DNA of 8,265 nt from an uncultured Verrucomicrobiota bacterium (lineage in GTDB: Bacteria > Verrucomicrobiota > Kiritimatiellia > RFP12 > UBA1067): NCBI GenBank assembly GCA_946615275.1, contig CAMOHV010000040.1:1-8265 (forward strand), read 5' to 3'. Shown here in pieces: positions 1 to 8,265 of this stretch; positions within the stretch are counted from its first letter, which is position 1, and every line of letters begins with the position of its first letter. The notes below the pieces were generated by a model that was not told where the DNA came from, ran no database searches, and saw only the letters and a list, made by a program, of their open reading frames with translations. Both the position numbers and the translations under genes were made by a program.

Positions 1-40
1 TTCGCGCGGGCTTTTCCTCTGGAAGGTGTTCTATGGAGGC

Positions 41-160
41 AAAACTCTGATTGCGCAAAACTCTGATTGCAAAACTCTGATTGCGCAAGGCTCTGATTGC
101 AAAACGCGGATTGCGCAAGGCTCTGATTGCAAAACGCGGATTGCGCAAGGCTCTGATGAA
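41..160. repeat. Tandem array of four 30-bp units (16 + 14 nt half-units) at the transposon left end
   Basis: Four back-to-back 30-bp units lie at 41-70, 71-100, 101-130 and 131-160. Each is a 16-nt half-unit (AAAACTCTGATTGCGC, or the variant AAAACGCGGATTGCGC) followed by a 14-nt half-unit (AAAACTCTGATTGC or AAGGCTCTGATTGC). The junction makes a perfect 8-bp palindrome, TTGCGCAA, at 51-58, 81-88, 111-118 and 141-148. There are no unique spacers. The last half-unit (147-157) is also the left arm of the adjacent REP-like hairpin, so the array reads as repeated copies of that arm. Variants are ordered: the CTCTG form comes first and the CGCGG form appears only in the 16-nt half of units 3 and 4, as expected from local duplication. 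The function is not known to me. It may be an expanded transposase recognition end. Confidence 0.92.
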
Positions 161-203
161 AATGCCGCTTGCGGGGGGCGGCAATGTGATCAGAGTCTTG
201 CAT
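140..203 (+). repeat. REP-like hairpin, left copy
   Basis: An imperfect hairpin occupies 145-201. The outer arm 145-157 (GCAAGGCTCTGAT) pairs with 189-201 over 13 positions, 12 Watson-Crick and one G:T (150 with 196). An inner stem pairs 163-168 (TGCCGC) with 178-183 (GCGGCA) around a G-rich 9-nt loop. The 64-nt block 140-203 aligns without gaps to 1155-1218, with 51 of 64 bases identical by hand count. It precedes the transposase start by about 20 nt. A REP-type hairpin next to its own RAYT is the expected arrangement for this transposase family. The left arm is continuous with the tandem array at 41-160. Confidence 0.8.
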
Positions 204-210
204 GGGCGGG

Positions 211-217
211 AGAGGAG
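211..217 (+). promoter_or_regulatory. Shine-Dalgarno site fixing the transposase start
   Basis: AGAGGAG ends 7 nt before the ATG at 225. It is the only strong ribosome binding site in the leader, and it supports 225 over the in-frame upstream ATGs at 81, 156 and 162, which lie inside the repeat array or hairpin. Confidence 0.75.
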
Positions 218-224
218 CCTTAGC

Positions 225-1199
225 ATGGGCAGGCTGCCGGGATTCGACTATTCGAGGCCGTTCTTCTACATGGTGACGCTGAAGGCGGTGAAGGGCGTGG
301 CGGAATTCGCCAGAATAGCGGACGATGCCGAGCCGCCACGGGATTCACGCGGGAGGATGCGCTATCTTGTCGCCAATGCGATCACGTACGCCTTCGCCAA
401 GGTGATCAAGGGTTTTGCGGCGAAACATAGTGGGCTTTGGCCGATCGAAACATTCATCATAATGCCGGATCATCTTCACATCCTTTTCCATCTGCGCGCC
501 GGCGGCCGAGCGCTTGGATGGCATGTGATGGCCCTCATAGAGGAATTGGATGCTGAATACCGGCGTGTGATGCAGATCTCTGATGGCGGGGCGGGAATGT
601 CTGGCGGAAAATCAGAGTTCTGCATTTCCCGCGACTGGCATGACTGGATTGTGAAGAAGGAAGGGCAGCTCGCGGCCTTTACCCGCTACATACGGGAGAA
701 CCCGAAACGAGCTTGGCTGAGGAGGCGGAACAGTCGTTTTTTCGGGCAAGTGAGCCGCATCAGCTTCGTTGGGCGCGAATGGTTCGCCTATGGCAACACG
801 GCGATCCTGGAACTGCCGGTGATCGAACCGTTCAGGTGCTCGCGCAAGTGGGCGAGTGGAGGGCTGGAATGGCGCGAGGCGCTGGAACTGGCCGCGCGGA
901 TTGGCCCCGGCGGCGCCGGAGCCGGCACGTTCATGAGCCCATGCGAGAAGGAATGCGGGAACGCCATCTACAAGGCCGGCGGATCGCTGATCGTTCTTTC
1001 GCCGGATGGCTTCGGAGAGAGGTGGCATCCGCCGCGCAACAAGGAGGTGCTCTGCGCAAAGGGGCGGATGCTCTTTCTTTCCCTCTGGGAGGCGGAGGCC
1101 GCGAAGCTCGACAATGCCACGCTCTACAGGCGATGCCACGAGATGGGGGATGCGATTGCGCAAGACTCTGATGGAGATGCCTCTTCCGAGGGACGGTAG
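225..1199 (+). CDS. REP-associated tyrosine transposase (RAYT, Y1/HUH family)
   Basis: This 324-aa protein is a Y1-type HUH single-strand DNA nuclease expected to cut and rejoin REP-like hairpins. The N-terminus (FDYSRPFFYMVTL) gives the first strand of the fold. The HUH motif is H83-L-H85 in MPDHLHILFHL (80-90). The catalytic tyrosine is most likely Y155 in AFTRYIRENPKRAW (151-164), matching the family Y-I-x-x-N-P-x-R-x-W pattern. Residues 190-324 form a C-terminal extension with SPCEKE, a glycine-rich turn, SLIVLSPDGF and CAKGRMLFLSLW, which resembles a Rossmann/DprA-like fold (inference). The frame stays open upstream to 81, but that part only translates the repeats, and the Shine-Dalgarno at 211-217 supports the start at 225. 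The last codons and the TAG stop lie inside the right hairpin copy. GC content looks lower than in neighbouring genes, consistent with transfer. All key residues are present, so it is probably active. Confidence 0.9.
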   Translation: MGRLPGFDYSRPFFYMVTLKAVKGVAEFARIADDAEPPRDSRGRMRYLVANAITYAFAKVIKGFAAKHSGLWPIETFIIMPDHLHILFHLRAGGRALGWHVMALIEELDAEYRRVMQISDGGAGMSGGKSEFCISRDWHDWIVKKEGQLAAFTRYIRENPKRAWLRRRNSRFFGQVSRISFVGREWFAYGNTAILELPVIEPFRCSRKWASGGLEWREALELAARIGPGGAGAGTFMSPCEKECGNAIYKAGGSLIVLSPDGFGERWHPPRNKEVLCAKGRMLFLSLWEAEAAKLDNATLYRRCHEMGDAIAQDSDGDASSEGR

Positions 1200-1218
1200 G
1201 ATAATCAGAGTATTGCAT
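1155..1218 (+). repeat. REP-like hairpin, right copy
   Basis: This is the second copy of the 64-nt block at 140-203, in the same orientation. Its outer arm 1160-1172 (GCAAGACTCTGAT) pairs with 1204-1216 at 12 of 13 positions, with a single G/A mismatch. The G:T pair of the left copy is A:T here. The TTGCGCAA palindrome is kept at 1156-1163, but only once, with no tandem array. The loop has diverged and forms only weak internal pairing. The block contains the final codons and stop of the transposase, and it ends 14 nt before the ATG of the next gene. Confidence 0.78.
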
Positions 1219-1236
1219 AGATTGGAGCTTTTATGA
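1171..1236 (+). other. Possible 21-codon ORF inside the right hairpin, overlapping the next start (ATGA)
   Basis: ATG at 1171 opens a frame of 21 codons (MEMPLPRDGRIIRVLHRLELL) whose TGA overlaps the ATG of the following gene as ATGA. The equivalent frame in the left hairpin (from 156) reads MKMPLAGGGNVIRVLHG and continues into the transposase. Sharing of M-x-M-P-L and I-R-V-L-H follows largely from the repeat being conserved. The Shine-Dalgarno-like match upstream is weak (CAAGA). It may be a coupling leader peptide, but it may equally be chance. I do not claim it is translated. Confidence 0.2.
1224..1227 (+). promoter_or_regulatory. Shine-Dalgarno site for the 734-aa secreted protein
   Basis: GGAG ends 5 nt before the ATG at 1233. 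It begins only 6 nt past the right hairpin copy, so translation initiation sits directly beside a foldable element. A weak -10-like GATAAT lies at 1200-1205 inside the hairpin, without a convincing -35. Confidence 0.55.
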
Positions 1237-3437
1237 AAAATGGTTTTTTGCGGATAGTGGGGATAGCCCTTATTGCCTTTCTTGGCAGAGCGGAGAATCG
1301 CCCAGCGATTCAGGCGTTGGGAGCGACGAATTCTGCCCCGACATCTGCGGGCGTGGCGCATGGCGCCGATCCGGCGTTCGACTTCGCGGCCGTCTCCGCG
1401 CGCCGATTTCCCCCGCCAACGCCGCTTGCGGAGGCGACGATCGCCACCAACTTCTCGCGGCGCTTCACATTCCCACACTCGACGGGCGGGGTGTGGCGCC
1501 TGTACTTCGACTACCGCCTCGACCATACCAAGGGCCGCAGGATCGGCGGTGCGCGCGCGCGCGTTTCGTTCGGGCCGAAGGTCATGCCCTGGGGGCCGGA
1601 CGTCCGCGGACCCATGATATCCGATTCCGACGTGGATCCGGGCGCGCTCTATCCGTGGCGGTGCAGCATGGAGGTGTTGCCGGGGATGGAGTTCGCCGAC
1701 ATAACGTTCGAGCTGTTCGGCAAGGGCGATTTCCGCGTGGCTAACGTCAAGTTCGAGGAGTGTCCGCCGAATCCGACACCCGTTGTGCTGGAGCTTCCGT
1801 TCGGAGGGTATTTCGATGGCGCATTCCACATCGGTTCGGGGCAGGCCGGCGTGCCAGTCTTCTCCTGGCGCACGAATCTTGACGAGGAGACGCCTCCTGG
1901 GAGGTTCGGATGCCGCATTGCGCTGCCGCCGGGCTTCGCGTTCGTGGACGCCTCGCACGCAGATCCCGCGACGGTGGCGGTGGCGTGCGGGACGAACGGC
2001 GAGAGCGTGGTGACGTACCGCGTCGCCTCGCGCCCGCCCAGAATCGGCCGCGAGGGAGGGGAGATGTTCGGAGTGGCGGTGCGCGCGGATGGCGCGGCCG
2101 GTGCGGAGGGGACGATGAAGGTCGTTGCGGAGGTGGACGGGCGCGTGGCGTCCGCGCCCGTTTCGCTGCGTCTTGTCGCGGTGGGGCCAGTCAGGGCGGG
2201 CAAGGCACCAGCCCGCTACGCCAACGCGGCGTATCTAGGCGGGGCGTATGCGGAATTCCCGGGCGAGGGCAACAGGGCGCTTGCGCGCACGCTGTGCGAT
2301 GCGGGGGTGACGTGGCTTCTGCCGTCCGCCGCCGCGGTCACCAACAATCCGTCGCTTGTCGCGATGTGGCGAGAGGAGGGGATGCGGCGCGTGACGCCCG
2401 ATGGTTCGTCTTTCATCGCGAACGGCTTCAACTCAGGCAGAAGGGTGTTCTGCCCCTGCGAGCTATACAGGGAGGATTCGCCCGTGCGGGCGGAGCTCAG
2501 GGGTATGTTCAAGAAGGCGCTCAAGGGTTGCGACGGCATGTGGTCCAACTGGGAGCCGTATTCGCACACCGGGCGGCGGCGCCTTTGCAGACGCTGCAAG
2601 GAGGCCGAGAAGGGGCTGGACGCCAAGGAAAGGGATCGGCTGAGGTCGGCCGAGCATGGCAGGGTCGTGCAGGCCGTCGCGGAGGACGTCGCGGCGGCGA
2701 CGGATCCCGCCGTGGGATTCATCCCCGGCATATACTGGCCGGAGCTGGGGCCGGGCCACGAAGGCTTCGACTTCACGCGCGAGATACGCGCGCAGGACTA
2801 CGCGAAGTCGCTGCTGTTCCTCAATGCGTTCGGGCCGTACGTGCGCTGCAACACGTCCGCGCGGTTCGTTCCCGAGCCGGGGCGGGCGGTGGCGTATTTC
2901 GTGGTGGCGCGCGAGGTGATGCGCCAGGTGGAGGAGGACTATCCGCCGGATGTGCGGCCGGCGCTGATGGCGTTTCCTCTGGGGCTTTCGGGCATGGATT
3001 GGGCGTCGCGGCCAGAGTGGCTGGAGCTTGCGCTAGACTCGTTCTTCTTCAACGGCTGGGGGTGCGCGGCGCCGTGGTCGTTCCCGTCCGGCGGCGACGC
3101 GCGGTTCCTGGCGGCGTTCGCGCGCGCGACGGAGCTGGCGGCGAAGTGGGAGGATTTCGTGTGGAACGGCGCGAGGGCAGACGGCGCGGCGAAGGTGAGG
3201 CCGCGAGGAAGGGTGGGCTCGAGGCCGTGGGTGGACAGGACCTACCTTGCGGAGCAGCGCGACGTTCCGCTCATCCAGCATGCCGTCTGGGAGAAGGGCG
3301 GCGAGCGCGTGGTGGCGGTGTTCAATTTCTCAGAGACGGCGTCGGCGGTATGCGACGTTACGATCCTCAAACGCAGCGAGACGGTCCATCTGCCGCCACT
3401 CTCGTGCCGGACGGTTTTCTTCCCGCGCCGTTTCTGA
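1233..3437 (+). CDS. Secreted glycoside hydrolase-like protein of unrecognised family
   Basis: The 734-aa product starts with a signal peptide (basic start, hydrophobic stretch at about 5-18, likely cleavage near GRA at 18-20) and should act outside the cytoplasm. Residues 45-175 and 185-315 look beta-rich, like carbohydrate-binding or Ig-like sandwiches. Residues 330-640 look like an alpha/beta barrel with C407-P-C409, then MWSNWEPYSH (436-445), then C452-R-R-C455. A [D/N]-x-E-P motif followed by a C-x-x-C knuckle occurs in several poorly characterised glycoside hydrolase-like families of carbohydrate-degrading bacteria, so E441 is a candidate catalytic acid. Residues 685-734 (VVAVFNFSETA onward) resemble the small C-terminal beta domain common in such enzymes. 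I do not recognise a specific family or substrate. It starts right after the right transposon hairpin and ends tail-to-tail over the symporter gene. Base use is much more GC-rich than in the transposase. Confidence 0.85.
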   Translation: MKNGFLRIVGIALIAFLGRAENRPAIQALGATNSAPTSAGVAHGADPAFDFAAVSARRFPPPTPLAEATIATNFSRRFTFPHSTGGVWRLYFDYRLDHTKGRRIGGARARVSFGPKVMPWGPDVRGPMISDSDVDPGALYPWRCSMEVLPGMEFADITFELFGKGDFRVANVKFEECPPNPTPVVLELPFGGYFDGAFHIGSGQAGVPVFSWRTNLDEETPPGRFGCRIALPPGFAFVDASHADPATVAVACGTNGESVVTYRVASRPPRIGREGGEMFGVAVRADGAAGAEGTMKVVAEVDGRVASAPVSLRLVAVGPVRAGKAPARYANAAYLGGAYAEFPGEGNRALARTLCDAGVTWLLPSAAAVTNNPSLVAMWREEGMRRVTPDGSSFIANGFNSGRRVFCPCELYREDSPVRAELRGMFKKALKGCDGMWSNWEPYSHTGRRRLCRRCKEAEKGLDAKERDRLRSAEHGRVVQAVAEDVAAATDPAVGFIPGIYWPELGPGHEGFDFTREIRAQDYAKSLLFLNAFGPYVRCNTSARFVPEPGRAVAYFVVAREVMRQVEEDYPPDVRPALMAFPLGLSGMDWASRPEWLELALDSFFFNGWGCAAPWSFPSGGDARFLAAFARATELAAKWEDFVWNGARADGAAKVRPRGRVGSRPWVDRTYLAEQRDVPLIQHAVWEKGGERVVAVFNFSETASAVCDVTILKRSETVHLPPLSCRTVFFPRRF

Positions 3438-4581
3438 ACCTGTCGGCGATGAGCGCGAGCGCGCCGTCGCCAGTGAGGTTGCACGCGGTGCTCATGCCGT
3501 CGAGCGCCATGTAAATGGCCACGAGTATGGCGTAGCGTTCCGGGGTGAAGCCAAGGGCGGTCTCCGCCACGGTGGCCGACGCCAGGACCACGCCGCCCGG
3601 GACGCCCGGCGCGGCCACGGCTATCACGCTTATCATCAGGATGAACTCCGTGAAGGCGGCGATCGATATCGGTTCGCCGGCCATCGTCATGAGGCCGATC
3701 GAGTAGAGCACCATGTTCGTCATGGAGCCGGCGAGGTGGACGTTTGCGCAGAGGGGAACGACGAGGTCCGCGGTCTCCTGGGAGACGCCGTTCTTGATGG
3801 TCTGGCGGAGCGTGACTGGGATCGTGGCGGCGGAGGAGCAGCAGCCGAATCCGGTGAAGTATGCGGGGAGCATGTTGGCGAGGGCGCGGAAGGGGTTGCG
3901 CCCCGAGATCGCGCCGGCGGCAAAGTATTGCAGCATGAGGAGCGCCCATTCAAGGGCGAGGCAGGCGGCCATGAGCTTCACGCATGGTCCGGCTATGACG
4001 GCGAGGCGCCCGGAGGCCATCGTCTCGGCGATGACGGCCAGGACGTACATGGGGAGGAGGGGCACGAAAAACTTGGCGATGGCCCATGTCATGACCTCGC
4101 GGAACTGGTGGGCGACCTCAAGGAGCAGATTTGATTTGCGTGCGATGATGCCGAGGCCGAGGAGGAACGAGAGCACGAGGCTGGTGATGACGTCGGCCGG
4201 CGGGGGGATCGGGATCTTGAAGTACGGTGCGAAAGCCTTCGCGGAGGAGGCGGAGGCGAGGTCGAGTCCGCCGCCTAATATCATGGGGAGGAACGTCTTG
4301 CCCGAGAAGAACGCAAAGTAGCCGGCGAAGAGCGTTGATGCGTAGGCGAGGGCCACGGTGACGAGGAGGAGCCGGCCGGCGGTGCGGCCGGCGTCGGCGA
4401 TGGCGGGGGTGACGAATCCGAGGATGATGAGCGGGACGAGGAACTTCACAAGCTGGGCGAATATTGACTTGAACGTGGTGAGGCCCCTGAGGCCGGCATC
4501 GGGAAGAATACGCCCTAGCAGCGTGCCTAGAGCGATGGCGAGGATGATCTGCACTATTATGCCTGGTCGTTTCATTTTCAT
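3367..4581 (-). CDS. DAACS (sodium:dicarboxylate/amino acid symporter) family transporter
   Basis: This 404-aa inner-membrane protein couples uptake of an amino acid or carboxylate to a cation gradient. Family landmarks are in order: an N-terminal membrane helix block (7-27, 39-62, 70-92), hairpin 1 with SSAATIP (249-255), the TM7 unwound segment PLCANVHLAGS (276-286), hairpin 2 with APGVPGG (324-330), and TM8 with LDGMSTACNLTGD (360-372). Length is normal for bacterial members. Against archaeal GltPh (residue numbers from memory), the NMDGT signature is replaced by HLAGS and the substrate arginine R397 by S364, while the equivalents of D394, N401 and D405 are kept as D361, N368 and D372. This argues against an acidic substrate and suggests a neutral amino acid (SstT- or ASCT-like) or something else. 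The start at 4581 lies 9 nt after a -10 box and has no Shine-Dalgarno; a second in-frame ATG follows two codons later. Confidence 0.92.
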   Translation of the reverse strand: MKMKRPGIIVQIILAIALGTLLGRILPDAGLRGLTTFKSIFAQLVKFLVPLIILGFVTPAIADAGRTAGRLLLVTVALAYASTLFAGYFAFFSGKTFLPMILGGGLDLASASSAKAFAPYFKIPIPPPADVITSLVLSFLLGLGIIARKSNLLLEVAHQFREVMTWAIAKFFVPLLPMYVLAVIAETMASGRLAVIAGPCVKLMAACLALEWALLMLQYFAAGAISGRNPFRALANMLPAYFTGFGCCSSAATIPVTLRQTIKNGVSQETADLVVPLCANVHLAGSMTNMVLYSIGLMTMAGEPISIAAFTEFILMISVIAVAAPGVPGGVVLASATVAETALGFTPERYAILVAIYMALDGMSTACNLTGDGALALIADRFRNGAGRKPSGTRVAADGPSRCV

Positions 4582-4590
4582 GGCGGGAAG

Positions 4591-4619
4591 ATTATATCAT
4601 TTTCAGTGCCTGGTGCCTA
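4591..4619 (-). promoter_or_regulatory. Promoter of the DAACS symporter gene, predicted nearly leaderless
   Basis: This is the mirror image of the plus-strand promoter. On the minus strand TATAAT occupies 4596-4591 with TGA before it, and TAGGCA occupies 4619-4614, again with a 17-nt spacing. The two -35-like hexamers share positions 4618-4619 at the palindrome centre, so two polymerases could not bind at once. The ATG at 4581 is 9 nt past the -10 box, giving a leader of at most a few bases. Confidence 0.68.
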
Positions 4620-4646
4620 GGCATCAGGCACTGAAAATGATATAAT
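4618..4646 (+). promoter_or_regulatory. Promoter of the glycosidase-adaptor operon, predicted leaderless
   Basis: TATAAT at 4641-4646 is a perfect -10 box, preceded by TGA to give an extended -10 (TGnTATAAT). TAGGCA at 4618-4623 matches 4 of 6 bases of the -35 consensus at a 17-nt spacing. Transcription should start about 7 nt downstream, at 4653-4654, exactly at the ATG at 4654. No Shine-Dalgarno precedes that ATG, so the message is probably leaderless. Confidence 0.7.
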
Positions 4647-4653
4647 ACGCCCC

Positions 4654-7002
4654 ATGAAGACCATTATCATCTGCGTGACGGCCCTCGCCACGTGTTCGCT
4701 GGCGGGGGGGACGGTGTTGTTCGATTTCGAGACGGAGCAGGAGCGCAAGGCCGCCCCGCGCTATGACGCGAACGGTGTCCATGTTGGCGTGACGAACGCA
4801 TTCGCCACCTCCGGCGGGCATGCCCTGCGCTTCGCCTGCGAGCCGTGGCGGAAGGGGCGCCCCGAATGGCCATCGTTCACGCTCACGACGAAGATGACCG
4901 ACTGGAGCGGCTACGACCGCCTTGTGGTGGACATCGTGGGCATTGGGGCCGGCGGCGACCTCTTCTCCACGTACATCGCGGGGCCTGAAGGCCGCATCCA
5001 GAACGGCCTGGGCAAGTCGCGCCGCGTGCCGGAGAGCGGCGTGACGCAGTGGGTGGTGGACCTCGACAAGTGGCCGAAGGAGACTTCGCCCACGAACATC
5101 GTGCGCGTCCATTTCTTCACGGAGCGGCCGAGGGGATTCGACATCACCATCGACCGTCTGACGCTTCTCAAGAAGGGCGAGAAGCTGCCTGTGCCGGACA
5201 GCCCAAGCGTCGGGCGCGAGGTGCTTGCGGTGGTGGCTGCGGACCGCGACGCGCTGCGCGCGGAAGTGGCCGAGCTTGAGGCGTGGAAGCGGCACGCGAA
5301 GGACTACATGCGCTTCCGCGACGCCTGCGCGGCGCCTGGCGTCCTGCGCGCGCCCAAGATGCTGCTGGGCGCGGCGACGACGATGGAGAAGGTGATGCCT
5401 CGCGGCGCGTTCACGGCGAGGCCTATGCCCGCGGAGGGTGTCGCGGTGCGCCTCGCGCGCAACGAGTACGAGGGGGTGCAGGTGCTGGTGGCGCCGAGGG
5501 ACTGCGACCTCGAGGACGTGAAGGTGTCGCTCGGCGCGGACGGCCTGAAGGGGCCTGGCGGCGCGGTGTTCCCGGCGTCTGGGGTCGCGTGCGACGTGAC
5601 TGGATACGTGAGGACCACGCGGCGCGCGCCGTACATGGTGGGCTACAACGTCTCCACGAACGGCGGCGCGGGCTACAAGCGCCTTGTGAAGGCTCCGGAC
5701 GTCGGATGGTGGCCGGATCCGATCCTCGGCTTCCTGAAGGGGATCGACGTCAGGGATCTCGACGTGCAGAGCTTCTGGGTGCGCGTGCACTGCCCGGAGG
5801 GCCAGAAGGCCGGCGTGTACAAAGGGGCGCTCGTCGTCTCGGCGCGCGGCGTGGATCCAGTCCGCATCCCGTTCTCGGTGCGCGTGAACGACTTCGCTCT
5901 CGGGCGCGTCTCGGAGCTGCCGCTCGCGATCACTTTCTCGCCAGGGCCCAACACGCAGCACGAGGGGGAGAAGAACCTCAAGCTTGCGGCGGCGCTGCGC
6001 GCGGACCCCGAGGCGCCGGTCAACATCTGGAGGAAACGCGAGGCCGCCTGGACGTCCTTCCTCGCCGACTATCTCATCCCGCTCGACAGCCTCTACCACG
6101 GCAACGAAATGTGGCGCTTCGGACCCCTTAAGCAGCTCAAGGCGGAGGGGCGCATCGGCTGGTTCAACCTCGGCTACTGGAGCTATCCCAGCAAGGACGA
6201 GACGATGGAGGCCTGGCGCGCGCGCACGATCCCGCGCCTCAGGAGGTTCTACGACGAGGCGAAGGCGAACGGCATCCTCGACCACGCCTACGTCTATGGC
6301 TGCGACGAGATCGCCAAGGAGTATTTCCCCGCGATCCGCAAGGCCGTGGGCGAGCTGAAGGCCGCGCTTCCGGGCGTGCCGGTCTCGACCACCGCCTACG
6401 ACCACGAGTTCGGCGTGGGCACGCCGCTCGACGTTATGGACTGGTTCACGCCGCTCACGCCGAAGTTCGACCCGGAGAAGGCAGCGGCCTCGCGCAAGGC
6501 CGGGCATCAGGTGTGGTGGTACATCTGCTGCGGCCCGCGCGCGCCGTACGCCAACATGTTCATCGAGTGCCCAGCGATCGAGGCGCGCATCCTAATGGGC
6601 GCGCAGACGACGAGGATGCGCCCCGACGGGTTCCTCTACTACCAGATCTCGATATGGAACTCCAGGAAGTGCATCACCACCGGCCCGTTCACGGACTGGG
6701 ACCCGCGCAGCTGGACCACCTACCACGGCGACGGCTCGTGGACGTGCGTCGGCCCCGGCGGCAGCCCGGTGCCCACCGTGCGCCTCGAGAACTTCCGCGA
6801 CGGCCTCGAGGACTTCGCGTACGCGAAGATCCTCGAGAGGAAGTTGAAGGAGAAGGCGGGCGACGAGGCATGGTGCCGCCGCGCCCGGGAGCTTCTCGCC
6901 GTGCCGCGCAGCGTGGTGGATTCGATGACTGACTACACCGACGACCCGCGGGCGGTATATTCTTGGCGCGACGCCATGGCCGACATGATCGAGGGCCGGT
7001 GA
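4654..7002 (+). CDS. Secreted GH123/DUF4091-type glycoside hydrolase
   Basis: The 782-aa product has a signal peptide (hydrophobic 4-17; cleavage near SLAGG, or less likely lipidation at C14). Residues about 20-172 (VLFDFETEQE to IDRLTLL) look like a CBM-type beta sandwich. A short charged helical linker follows at 185-225. Residues 240-415 form the beta-rich GH123 N-terminal-like region (MPAEGVAVRLARNEYEGVQVLVAP is typical). The catalytic barrel at 420-735 contains HAYVYGCDE (544-552), WWYICCGPRAPYANMF (621-636), DGFLYYQISIW (658-668) and PTVRLENFRDGLEDF (707-721), all strong DUF4091 signatures. In characterised GH123 enzymes an adjacent Asp-Glu pair drives substrate-assisted hydrolysis of beta-N-acetylgalactosaminides; D551-E552 is the matching pair. 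Activity on GalNAc-containing glycans is therefore plausible, but many DUF4091 proteins are untested. It is first in an operon, 19 nt before the adaptor gene. Confidence 0.9.
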   Translation: MKTIIICVTALATCSLAGGTVLFDFETEQERKAAPRYDANGVHVGVTNAFATSGGHALRFACEPWRKGRPEWPSFTLTTKMTDWSGYDRLVVDIVGIGAGGDLFSTYIAGPEGRIQNGLGKSRRVPESGVTQWVVDLDKWPKETSPTNIVRVHFFTERPRGFDITIDRLTLLKKGEKLPVPDSPSVGREVLAVVAADRDALRAEVAELEAWKRHAKDYMRFRDACAAPGVLRAPKMLLGAATTMEKVMPRGAFTARPMPAEGVAVRLARNEYEGVQVLVAPRDCDLEDVKVSLGADGLKGPGGAVFPASGVACDVTGYVRTTRRAPYMVGYNVSTNGGAGYKRLVKAPDVGWWPDPILGFLKGIDVRDLDVQSFWVRVHCPEGQKAGVYKGALVVSARGVDPVRIPFSVRVNDFALGRVSELPLAITFSPGPNTQHEGEKNLKLAAALRADPEAPVNIWRKREAAWTSFLADYLIPLDSLYHGNEMWRFGPLKQLKAEGRIGWFNLGYWSYPSKDETMEAWRARTIPRLRRFYDEAKANGILDHAYVYGCDEIAKEYFPAIRKAVGELKAALPGVPVSTTAYDHEFGVGTPLDVMDWFTPLTPKFDPEKAAASRKAGHQVWWYICCGPRAPYANMFIECPAIEARILMGAQTTRMRPDGFLYYQISIWNSRKCITTGPFTDWDPRSWTTYHGDGSWTCVGPGGSPVPTVRLENFRDGLEDFAYAKILERKLKEKAGDEAWCRRARELLAVPRSVVDSMTDYTDDPRAVYSWRDAMADMIEGR

Positions 7003-7008
7003 TCCAGG

Positions 7009-7015
7009 AAAGGAG
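7009..7015 (+). promoter_or_regulatory. Shine-Dalgarno site for the adaptor gene
   Basis: AAAGGAG ends 6 nt before the ATG at 7022. It is a strong site, in contrast to the leaderless start of the first gene of the operon. Confidence 0.8.
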
Positions 7016-7021
7016 CAGACG

Positions 7022-8107
7022 ATGAGAGAACATGGTTTGATGGCTTTGTCGGCGGCGGCCGCGCTTTCGGCCGCGTCGGCGATGGCCGCGACGATCACAC
7101 TGCCGGTGGAGAAGGTGCGGAGCGCTTTCGACCCGATGGAGAAGACGTTTCCCGGAAGGGTGATGGCCGTGCAGAGGGTGGACGTCACGCCCGAGGTCTC
7201 CGGGGAGATCACCGAGGTGTGCTTCGCCAACGGACAGCTCGTGAAGGAGGGCGATCTCCTCTACCGCATCATGCCGATCAAGTACAAGAGCGCCCTCAAG
7301 AACGCCCAGGCCAAGGTCGAGGAGTGCCGCGCGAAGAAGGCGTATGCCGAGGGCAGTGCCGCGCGCTACGAGAAGCTGGCGCCCGGAAAGGCGGTGTCGC
7401 AGGACGCCCTTGAGAGCGCTCGTTCGGGGAGGGCCGTGGCGTCCGCCGCTCTCGAGGCCGCCGAGGCCGAGCTCGCCGTTGCGCAGTACAACCTCGACCG
7501 CTGCGACATCAAGACTCCGATATCGGGGAAGACGGGGACGTCCAGCCTCACGCGCGGCAATCCCGTCTCGCCGTCGACGCCGCTCGTGACGGTTGTGCAG
7601 CTACAGCCCATCCGCGTGCGGTTCTCCATCTCCAACGCCGACTTCCTGACGCTATTCGGCGGCAAGTCGCGCGCGCTCAAGGAGCAGGGCGAGGTGTCAG
7701 TGACGCTCGCGAACGGAACGGTGTTCTCCGAGAAGGGCGAGGTGGAGTACACCGAGAACGTGGCGGACGAGGCCACCGACACCATGCGCGTGTACGCCAC
7801 GTTCCCGAACGCAGAGCGCATGCTGAGGCCGGGATCCACCGTGGGGGTGGTGCTCCGCAACAAGTCCGGCGCCGCATGCGCGGCCGTCCCGCCATCGGCG
7901 GTGATGCAGGACGCCCAGGGCGCCTCCGTGTGGGTCGTGGGCGCGGATGGGCGCGCATCGCGGCGGCGCATCGCGGGCGCGCGCATCTCCGGCTTGGACA
8001 TGCTCGTCACATCCGGCCTCAAGGAGGGCGAGATCGTGGTCGCCGACGGCGTCCACAAGGTGGAGGAAGGCGACATCGTCAAACCATCAGCAGAACGAGG
8101 AGAGTGA
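7022..8107 (+). CDS. RND efflux periplasmic adaptor (membrane fusion protein, HlyD/AcrA family)
   Basis: The 361-aa protein bridges an inner-membrane pump and a TolC-type outer-membrane channel. It has a cleavable signal peptide (cut near SAMA-A, residue 22) and no lipobox, so it should be soluble in the periplasm. Order of parts: membrane-proximal strand VMAVQRVDVTPEVSG (47-61); lipoyl half with NGQLVKEGDLLYRI (70-83); alpha-hairpin at about 86-160; second lipoyl half CDIKTPISGKTG (161-172); beta-barrel at about 195-280; membrane-proximal domain to 355 (VPPSAVMQD, LKEGEIVVADG). The hairpin tip carries the TolC-contact RLS motif as R115, L119 and S126 at the same spacing as in AcrA. Length is near the usual 370-400. 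Cotranscription with a glycosidase is unusual; no RND pump gene follows directly. It may serve export of a compound or a pump encoded elsewhere. Confidence 0.93.
   Translation: MREHGLMALSAAAALSAASAMAATITLPVEKVRSAFDPMEKTFPGRVMAVQRVDVTPEVSGEITEVCFANGQLVKEGDLLYRIMPIKYKSALKNAQAKVEECRAKKAYAEGSAARYEKLAPGKAVSQDALESARSGRAVASAALEAAEAELAVAQYNLDRCDIKTPISGKTGTSSLTRGNPVSPSTPLVTVVQLQPIRVRFSISNADFLTLFGGKSRALKEQGEVSVTLANGTVFSEKGEVEYTENVADEATDTMRVYATFPNAERMLRPGSTVGVVLRNKSGAACAAVPPSAVMQDAQGASVWVVGADGRASRRRIAGARISGLDMLVTSGLKEGEIVVADGVHKVEEGDIVKPSAERGE
8097..8102 (+). promoter_or_regulatory. Shine-Dalgarno site for the truncated last gene
   Basis: GAGGAG lies within the last codons of the adaptor gene and ends 6 nt before the ATG at 8109. 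Translation of the two genes is probably coupled. Confidence 0.75.
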
Positions 8108-8108
8108 A

Positions 8109-8265
8109 ATGACGAAAGTCATTGCGACTATGATGATTGCGGCGGCCCTGCCGGTCGTCGCTTCCGCGGAGGTGCACGACGGGCGCTTCTCGTGGGGCGG
8201 GCGCGACGAACATCCCGCAGTCGTGAACCCGGTGGTGCGCGCCGACGACGGGAGCGTCGTCTCCC
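8109..8265 (+). CDS. Secreted protein of unknown function, 3' end cut by the window
   Basis: ATG at 8109 comes one base after the adaptor's stop codon, with GAGGAG 6 nt upstream, so the genes almost certainly share a transcript. The 52 visible residues begin with a signal peptide (hydrophobic 4-18, likely cleavage after VASA at residue 20), and the mature part starts EVHDGRFSWGGRDEHPAVV. I do not recognise the family. It does not look like an RND permease, whose N-terminus would be an uncleaved membrane helix of another pattern. It is a predicted periplasmic or exported protein working beside the glycosidase and the adaptor. Confidence 0.75.
   Translation, partial: MTKVIATMMIAAALPVVASAEVHDGRFSWGGRDEHPAVVNPVVRADDGSVVS

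Follow-up and report, generated by a model that had tools for sequence, protein, structure and literature searches.

Published work, summarised here from those parts of the papers that were available, has already described tandem arrays of REPs next to RAYTs, as well as REPs that lie in frame within RAYT genes. In P. fluorescens SBW25, tandem REP arrays and REPIN clusters are found beside RAYTs (PMC3116915), and one in three RAYTs has a BIME as its neighbour (PMC2817692). Head-to-tail REP dimers and REPs located in genes have also been described, and in some systems GTAG REPs are reported to provide stop codons (PMC3733652). Finally, in subclass 2.4 of TnpA_REP, REPs lie in frame inside the RAYT genes (PMC6006769).

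Here, a RAYT locus from an uncultured Verrucomicrobiota bacterium of the class Kiritimatiellia, which probably lives in the gut, is compared with these systems. The whole stretch of DNA analysed, called the window, is 8,265 nt long (GenBank assembly GCA_946615275.1, contig CAMOHV010000040.1, positions 1 to 8,265). It carries a ladder of direct repeats that runs into the hairpin upstream of the transposase gene (Table 1).

Table 1. Coordinates of the ladder, the inverted pairs and the transposase gene in the window
Feature	Position	Strand	Description
Ladder	39..158	+	Four 30-nt direct units of 14+16-nt half-units; the last runs into the left hairpin arm
Ladder units	39-68, 69-98, 99-128, 129-158		
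Left inverted pair (REP/REPIN-like hairpin)	145..201	+	Arms 145-168/178-201; from an inverted-repeat scan and DNA and RNA folds of 39-204
Single right arm of the left hairpin	189..202	-	Complementary to ladder half-units
RAYT/TnpA_REP transposase gene	225..1199	+	324 aa
HuH/Y1 domain	225..728	+	Residues 1-168; H83-x-H85, Y155; based on invariant columns and 4er8
Third inverted pair	563..632	+	Inside the ORF; core 571-624; encodes a low-confidence loop including residues 122-129
DprA-like C-terminal domain	741..1181	+	About residues 173-319
Right inverted pair	1156..1216	+	TTGCGCAA on the 5' side; TAG stop (1197-1199) inside; no ladder

Comparison with described systems

As in REPtrons, which are RAYTs with flanking REPs, a transposase with the HuH/Y1 TnpA_REP fold lies here between inverted repeats (PMC2817692, PMC8266576). 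REPtrons also have relatives of the repeat elsewhere in genomes with a cognate RAYT; here such copies were found in four sister genomes and not in a fifth. In contrast to REPtrons as the available text presents them, the ladder and the left hairpin lack a GTAG foot, in the place of which a TGCAARAC-type box is often found in this clade; the transposase has an extra DprA-like domain; and sister genomes hold 9-30 copies of the exact pattern rather than hundreds. The SBW25 arrays are likewise evenly spaced and head-to-tail, with two alternating spacings and REPIN clusters beside RAYTs. Their spacings of 72 and 112 bp nevertheless separate whole REPs, whereas the window has 14- and 16-nt half-units that contain no internal hairpin and are directly continuous with the hairpin arm (available parts of PMC3116915).

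Subclass 2.4 shares with this locus a REP in frame between the HuH and Y motifs, represented here by the inverted pair at 563-632 and by relatives, and a variable peripheral region. The motifs given for it in the available text are NH[IFV]H and YIxNNP, whereas those of the window are DHLH and YIRENP, so the window protein is not filed there; the DprA-like domain and the varying number of in-gene ladder units in the window's clade are further differences (PMC6006769). The dimers and TIRtrons of PMC3733652 resemble the locus in their tandem REPs, REPs in ORFs, REP-derived stops and longer inverted repeats flanking RAYT-like genes, but the available part of that paper contains no single-arm ladder. 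With DprA and ShosA the window protein shares the fold of residues 173-319; it differs in that the domain is fused to a HuH transposase and has no Pfam DprA match.

The sequence-only reading of the window regarded the ladder as a pattern without known precedent. This went too far, as tandem REP arrays, also beside RAYTs, have been published (PMC3116915, PMC2817692, PMC3733652, each as far as available). Unusual here are a single-arm ladder that is free of hairpins, the presence of such a ladder within the transposase gene, and the RAYT-DprA fusion. Among the literature matches listed, which covered few subscription papers and were available in part, none described a hairpin-less single-arm ladder or unit-step variation inside a RAYT, and none named both RAYT and DprA; PMC6006769 does not mention DprA.

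The ladder and the left hairpin

The four 30-nt units and their half-units, first noticed by eye of a model in the bare sequence, were recovered by TRF (39-157, period 30, 4.0 copies, 95% matches, score 196; alternative periods 16 and 14), against a best score of 76 in 1000 dinucleotide shuffles of positions 1-1300. The motif TTGCGCAA occurs once per unit, as had been stated, at 51, 81, 111 and 141, with one extra copy at 1156 in the right hairpin. The reading of the ladder as repeats of an arm from the hairpin at the RAYT's own end also holds. This hairpin (145-201) has arms of 24 nt that are 83% complementary, and the final half-unit of the ladder doubles as its left arm. Stretches of 13-14 nt at 39, 55, 68, 85 and 115 show 92-93% complementarity to its right arm (189-201 or 202). 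In effect, the ladder is boxes A and B repeated four times, with the last B as the left hairpin arm, and its unit is a bipartite arm of two similar boxes in direct orientation.

All half-units have the same orientation, so the ladder is not a BIME, in which REPs alternate in orientation. Neither the ladder nor the left hairpin has a GTAG or GTGG foot, and they are therefore not canonical GTAG REPs. The Hamming distances between units are 2, 2 and 1 for neighbours, 4 and 3 for units one apart and 5 for the outermost pair. Thus, neighbours are most alike and divergence is stepwise, which is the order expected from adding units side by side; this favours repeated local duplication over rolling single-strand copying.

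The transposase and its C-terminal domain

H83, H85 and Y155 are invariant among 27 aligned sequences, which gives the window protein the HuH motif and catalytic tyrosine of a RAYT; the role of Y155 was assigned via the Y motif described in the available part of PMC6006769. The predicted structure has the TnpA_REP fold. Against the NCBIfam model NF047646 (REP_Tyr_transpos), the protein scored 32 bits with a cut-off of 80 (E 9.9e-8); it is related to the members of that family but, by that model, not an equivalog.

The C-terminal domain is predicted to adopt the Rossmann-like fold of DprA. When the domain alone was compared by Foldseek, the top 11 chains, from five entries, were all DprA, and the best four matches of a C-terminal profile against PDB sequences were DprA as well (E 0.0038-0.023). 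The Pfam DprA profile had no match in 42 members at E 1, and the domain is therefore named DprA-like only. With a profile of the whole protein, only IS200-type transposases were found in the PDB below E 0.2; the likeness emerged by the fold and the C-terminal profile, not from the whole-protein profile. The same C-terminal region was matched in Bacteroidales relatives. DprA anneals single strands and loads RecA.

In five pairs of loci, synonymous and non-synonymous codon differences numbered 15/7, 12/7, 27/24, 20/13 and 10/4, so the transposase genes look maintained. Two metagenome proteins are apparent chimeras, one with a window-like N-terminus and a foreign C-terminus and the other the reverse (P0005 and P0020), by recombination or misassembly. 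A known defence protein was not indicated, as PADLOC matched none of four proteins, and tblastn gave no match in the plasmid or phage collection that would point to such an element.

The remaining genes of the window (1233-8104) encode a 734-aa protein with no Pfam match, an SDF symporter, a GH123-domain protein and an RND adaptor, and have no visible link to the ladder. The divergent genes at 3367-4581(-) and 4654-7002(+) are separated by a near-perfect palindrome of 56 nt (4591-4646; 28-nt arms, 96%), which has a TATAAT at each of its outer ends.

Inverted pairs behind and inside the gene

Both flanks of the gene carry inverted REP-like hairpins (145-201 and 1160-1216), as is typical of RAYTs; the arms of the right one are 1160-1172 and 1204-1216. 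No direct repeats were found within 1100-1260. Thus, the absence of an array at the right end, as claimed at first, is correct for the window, but it is not general, since relatives have arrays downstream of and inside the gene. The only GTAG of the REP-like elements (1196-1199) lies within the right hairpin and provides the TAG stop of the transposase gene.

A third inverted pair, overlooked by the earlier reading, lies inside the ORF (563-584/611-632, 82% complementary), and its inner part is complementary at 13 of 14 positions (571-584/611-624). In the predicted structure, pLDDT is below 50 at residues 122-129.

Arrays at related loci

A protein search with the transposase gave 1187 homologues, and the three organism names given among the 120 listed were all Kiritimatiellae bacterium. 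Matches to P0001 were found in 147 of 345 genomes of the class, distant relatives included. The window and 71 loci picked among the better matches were compared; these 72 loci are related rather than independent, and they include stop-bearing or 5'-truncated copies (L098, L131, L133, L134, L136, L139 and L147). Twenty stretches from far parts of RAYT-bearing contigs served as controls, giving 199 windows after an N filter and 201 without it. An array was defined as a TRF repeat with a score of at least 60 and a period of at least 12 within 400 nt of the gene or inside it; TRF replaced an 8-mer layout scan that was too noisy in the G+C-rich loci.

Arrays were present at 31 of the 72 RAYT loci and in 30 of the 199 control windows, and 41 loci had none at this threshold. 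At scores of at least 100, the counts were 24/72 and 12/199 (Fisher 5.7e-8, a value that is optimistic because the loci are related). Arm signs, that is, at least two clade boxes or a 10-nt stretch with a nearby inverted partner, were present in an array at 20 of the 31 loci. Arrays holding clade boxes were found at 14/72 loci and in 0/201 control windows, and 13/201 control windows had an array with an inverted partner. The arrays at 11 of the 31 loci, L081, L083 and L090 among them, contained neither the box pair nor the 10-nt inverted partner; not every array at a RAYT locus is an arm ladder.

Altogether, 40 arrays could be placed: 18 in the gene, 11 upstream and 11 downstream, six of the last still inside the ORF. 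The period was divisible by three in 23 of the 24 in-ORF arrays, the exception being L096 (period 19, 2.3 copies), and in 8 of the 16 others. Upstream sister ladders have periods and copy numbers of 36 x 3.9 (L111), 45 x 2.8 (L126) and 42 x 2.7 (L154); in-gene ladders occur at L102 and L103 (45 x 3.6 and 6.6) and also at L091, L093 and L094. At L016, an 81-nt unit is repeated 5.7 times with 97% match about 370 nt behind the RAYT match, reaching the contig end (4657-5115).

In the window's subclade (the window, L091, L093, L094, L111 and L112; tree support 92/91, not starred), all six loci have arrays, L112 with only 1.9 copies. The tree covers 63 of the 72 loci, as motifs or ends are missing in L099, L107, L133, L134, L136, L139, L147, L148 and L154. 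On it, the 19 loci with arrays scoring at least 100 require 12 changes, against a mean of 16.6 after shuffling and no value of 12 or fewer in 300 shuffles. The arrays are thus clustered on the tree, yet have been gained or lost repeatedly.

The repeat unit and its dispersal

The box TGCAA[AGC]AC occurs 128 times over the 72 loci (at 37 of them), compared with 16 times in 368 kb of control sequence; its frequency has maxima upstream, between gene positions 300 and 480, and beyond 1020. A perfect stem of at least 6 bp lies directly 5' of 56 of the 128 boxes and 3' of five, with none upstream after shuffling; 23 of the 37 box-bearing loci have such a stem at some box. In our reading, the REP of much of this clade is a hairpin whose foot carries this box where GTAG would otherwise stand. 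The three boxes of the window (68, 98 and 128) have no such stem, and the repeat of the subclade is a box pair in direct orientation.

The bipartite arm, searched as ACTCNGATTTGCNNNACTCNNAT, is present in 4 of 332 genomes of the class (G013, G014, G015 and G165, with 12, 9, 30 and 20 copies); the reversed pattern was absent from all 332. These four hold the sister RAYTs L093, L091, L094 and L111, and among the 332 genomes the arm was found only where there is a sister RAYT. It is absent from G287, which holds the sister RAYT L112 of the same subclade. Part of the copies are at the RAYT and part are not; four of 12 in G013 and three of nine in G014 lie on other contigs.

When up to two mismatches were allowed, G165 had 29 copies, 15 of them in same-strand tandem groups 28-48 nt apart (contigs 78, 80, 98 and 198), and 10 of these 15 lie away from the RAYT. 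For instance, contig 80 carries a ladder of three copies 41 nt apart (L204:1501-1605) and has no RAYT among the matches listed. By contrast, 22 of 23 matches to the 45-nt hairpin-type unit are on the RAYT contig. The exact ladder motif of the window was found in none of the 332 genomes, in none of 80 related loci and in no viral contig; variation and dispersal of the ladder are known from sister genomes, not from the window's own.

The tie between ladders and RAYTs that the sequence-only reading proposed is therefore upheld in part. Homologous loci do carry arrays, more often than controls and throughout the subclade, and the arm accompanies sister RAYTs; that ladders are confined to the vicinity of a RAYT is incorrect, as several lie elsewhere in G165.

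Length change of the ladders

L102 and L103 are 98% identical over 834 nt, including part of the array, and have 3.6 and 6.6 units of 45 nt at the same place in the gene. Loop lengths were compared in the 116 of 121 proteins that have all three motifs. Among them are 252 near-identical pairs, which share members and were required to be at least 95% identical only between WHDW and RCHEM. The loop is of unequal length in 165 of these pairs, with a difference of exactly 15 aa, equal to one 45-nt unit, in 91.

Origin of the ladder

On balance, the ladder is probably a tandem amplification of the adjacent RAYT's REP arm, brought about by RAYT nicking and out-of-register annealing, that persists as a site cluster and hitch-hiker; confidence in this is modest. 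The observations behind it are the array and its kinship with the hairpin arm, similar ladders at sister RAYTs, the bipartite arm in genomes with a sister RAYT, the enrichment of clade boxes and of stems 5' of them, unit-sized length differences within RAYT genes, the likeness of neighbouring units in 8 of 14 arrays and the predicted protein fold; the steps that follow are inferred. The RAYT, through its HuH/Y1 nuclease, would nick REP DNA while it is single-stranded, as at the replication fork; units next to each other would then re-anneal out of register, with one unit gained or lost each time. The DprA-like domain may help this annealing. The ladder would be kept as a putative cluster of recognition sites and as a hitch-hiker that is tolerated in flanks that do not code for protein or in regions of the transposase that are disordered. 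Several observations count against arm amplification, namely the 41 loci with no array, the 11 loci whose arrays have no arm sign, the missing arm in G287 and the lack of a GTAG foot at the ladder and left hairpin.

Ordinary replication slippage or unequal recombination, in which the RAYT has no part and any short repeat beside a hairpin would expand in the same way, stays the main rival, possible rather than probable. Slippage would leave the same marks as ladder growth driven by the RAYT at putative binding or cutting sites. In its favour, the nearest units are most alike in the window and in 8 of the 14 arrays with at least three units, and control windows also have arrays, some with an inverted partner. 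In the other 6 of the 14, neighbours are not the closest, which counts against arm amplification; the units of each array were delimited in one fixed phase, which inflates the distances where there are indels. The finding of arm signs at only 20 of the 31 loci with arrays makes slippage slightly more likely and arm amplification slightly less so. Against slippage stand the excess of high-scoring arrays at RAYT loci, the restriction of clade-box arrays to these loci and the tracking of sister RAYTs by the bipartite arm.

It is improbable that the repeat is turned by the RAYT into a small circle, copied by rolling circle and inserted as a concatemer, a route that has been proposed for BIMEs (available part of PMC2817692). 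The HuH/Y1 fold, the identical copies within one array (L134, 18 nt, distance 0) and the uniform downstream array of L016 would suit it, but the stepwise divergence of the window ladder and the one-unit differences between near-identical genes would not.

Even less probable is a role for the array in regulating the transposase gene or as an RNA element belonging to it, with several operator sites or a structured leader. The ladder ends 66 nt upstream of the start codon, and the array and hairpin (39-204) fold stably as a single strand (z -4.28 as DNA, -3.75 as RNA). This folding, which includes the hairpin, is all that speaks for the structured repeat RNA suggested at first; Rfam gave no match at E 1, a scan of 1-1400 turned up no promoter-like site (shuffles average 0.5), and the arrays of relatives also lie inside and behind the gene.

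Finally, it is very improbable that the ladder codes for an N-terminal extension of the transposase. In favour of it, the frame that enters the gene is open upstream from TTG 81 (ORF 81-1199, open over 81-224), across the last ladder units and ATG 156 within the hairpin; the period of 30 keeps this frame, and in-ORF arrays are common in relatives. Against it, 78 of 121 proteins start with MGRL, the start is followed after at most a few residues by the shared RL..FDY motif in 104 of 121, and GGAG (214-217) lies 7 nt before ATG 225.

A bolder form of arm amplification is tentative and rather unlikely: a RAYT with its own DprA-like annealing domain would make and resize arm ladders, with a hairpin-less direct box pair as the minimal replicating unit. 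As ladders also form within its coding sequence, such an enzyme would rewrite how long its own disordered loop and tail are, and transposase and repeat would form a self-editing pair.

How REPs multiply and cluster at RAYTs is a standing question, on which this clade bears. It offers ladders of varied length, some beside the gene of one and the same enzyme, some within it and some elsewhere, together with a natural fusion that joins the nicking domain to a fold whose known role is the handling of single strands. Thus, the role of the RAYT in array building, and the step that is used, become directly testable.
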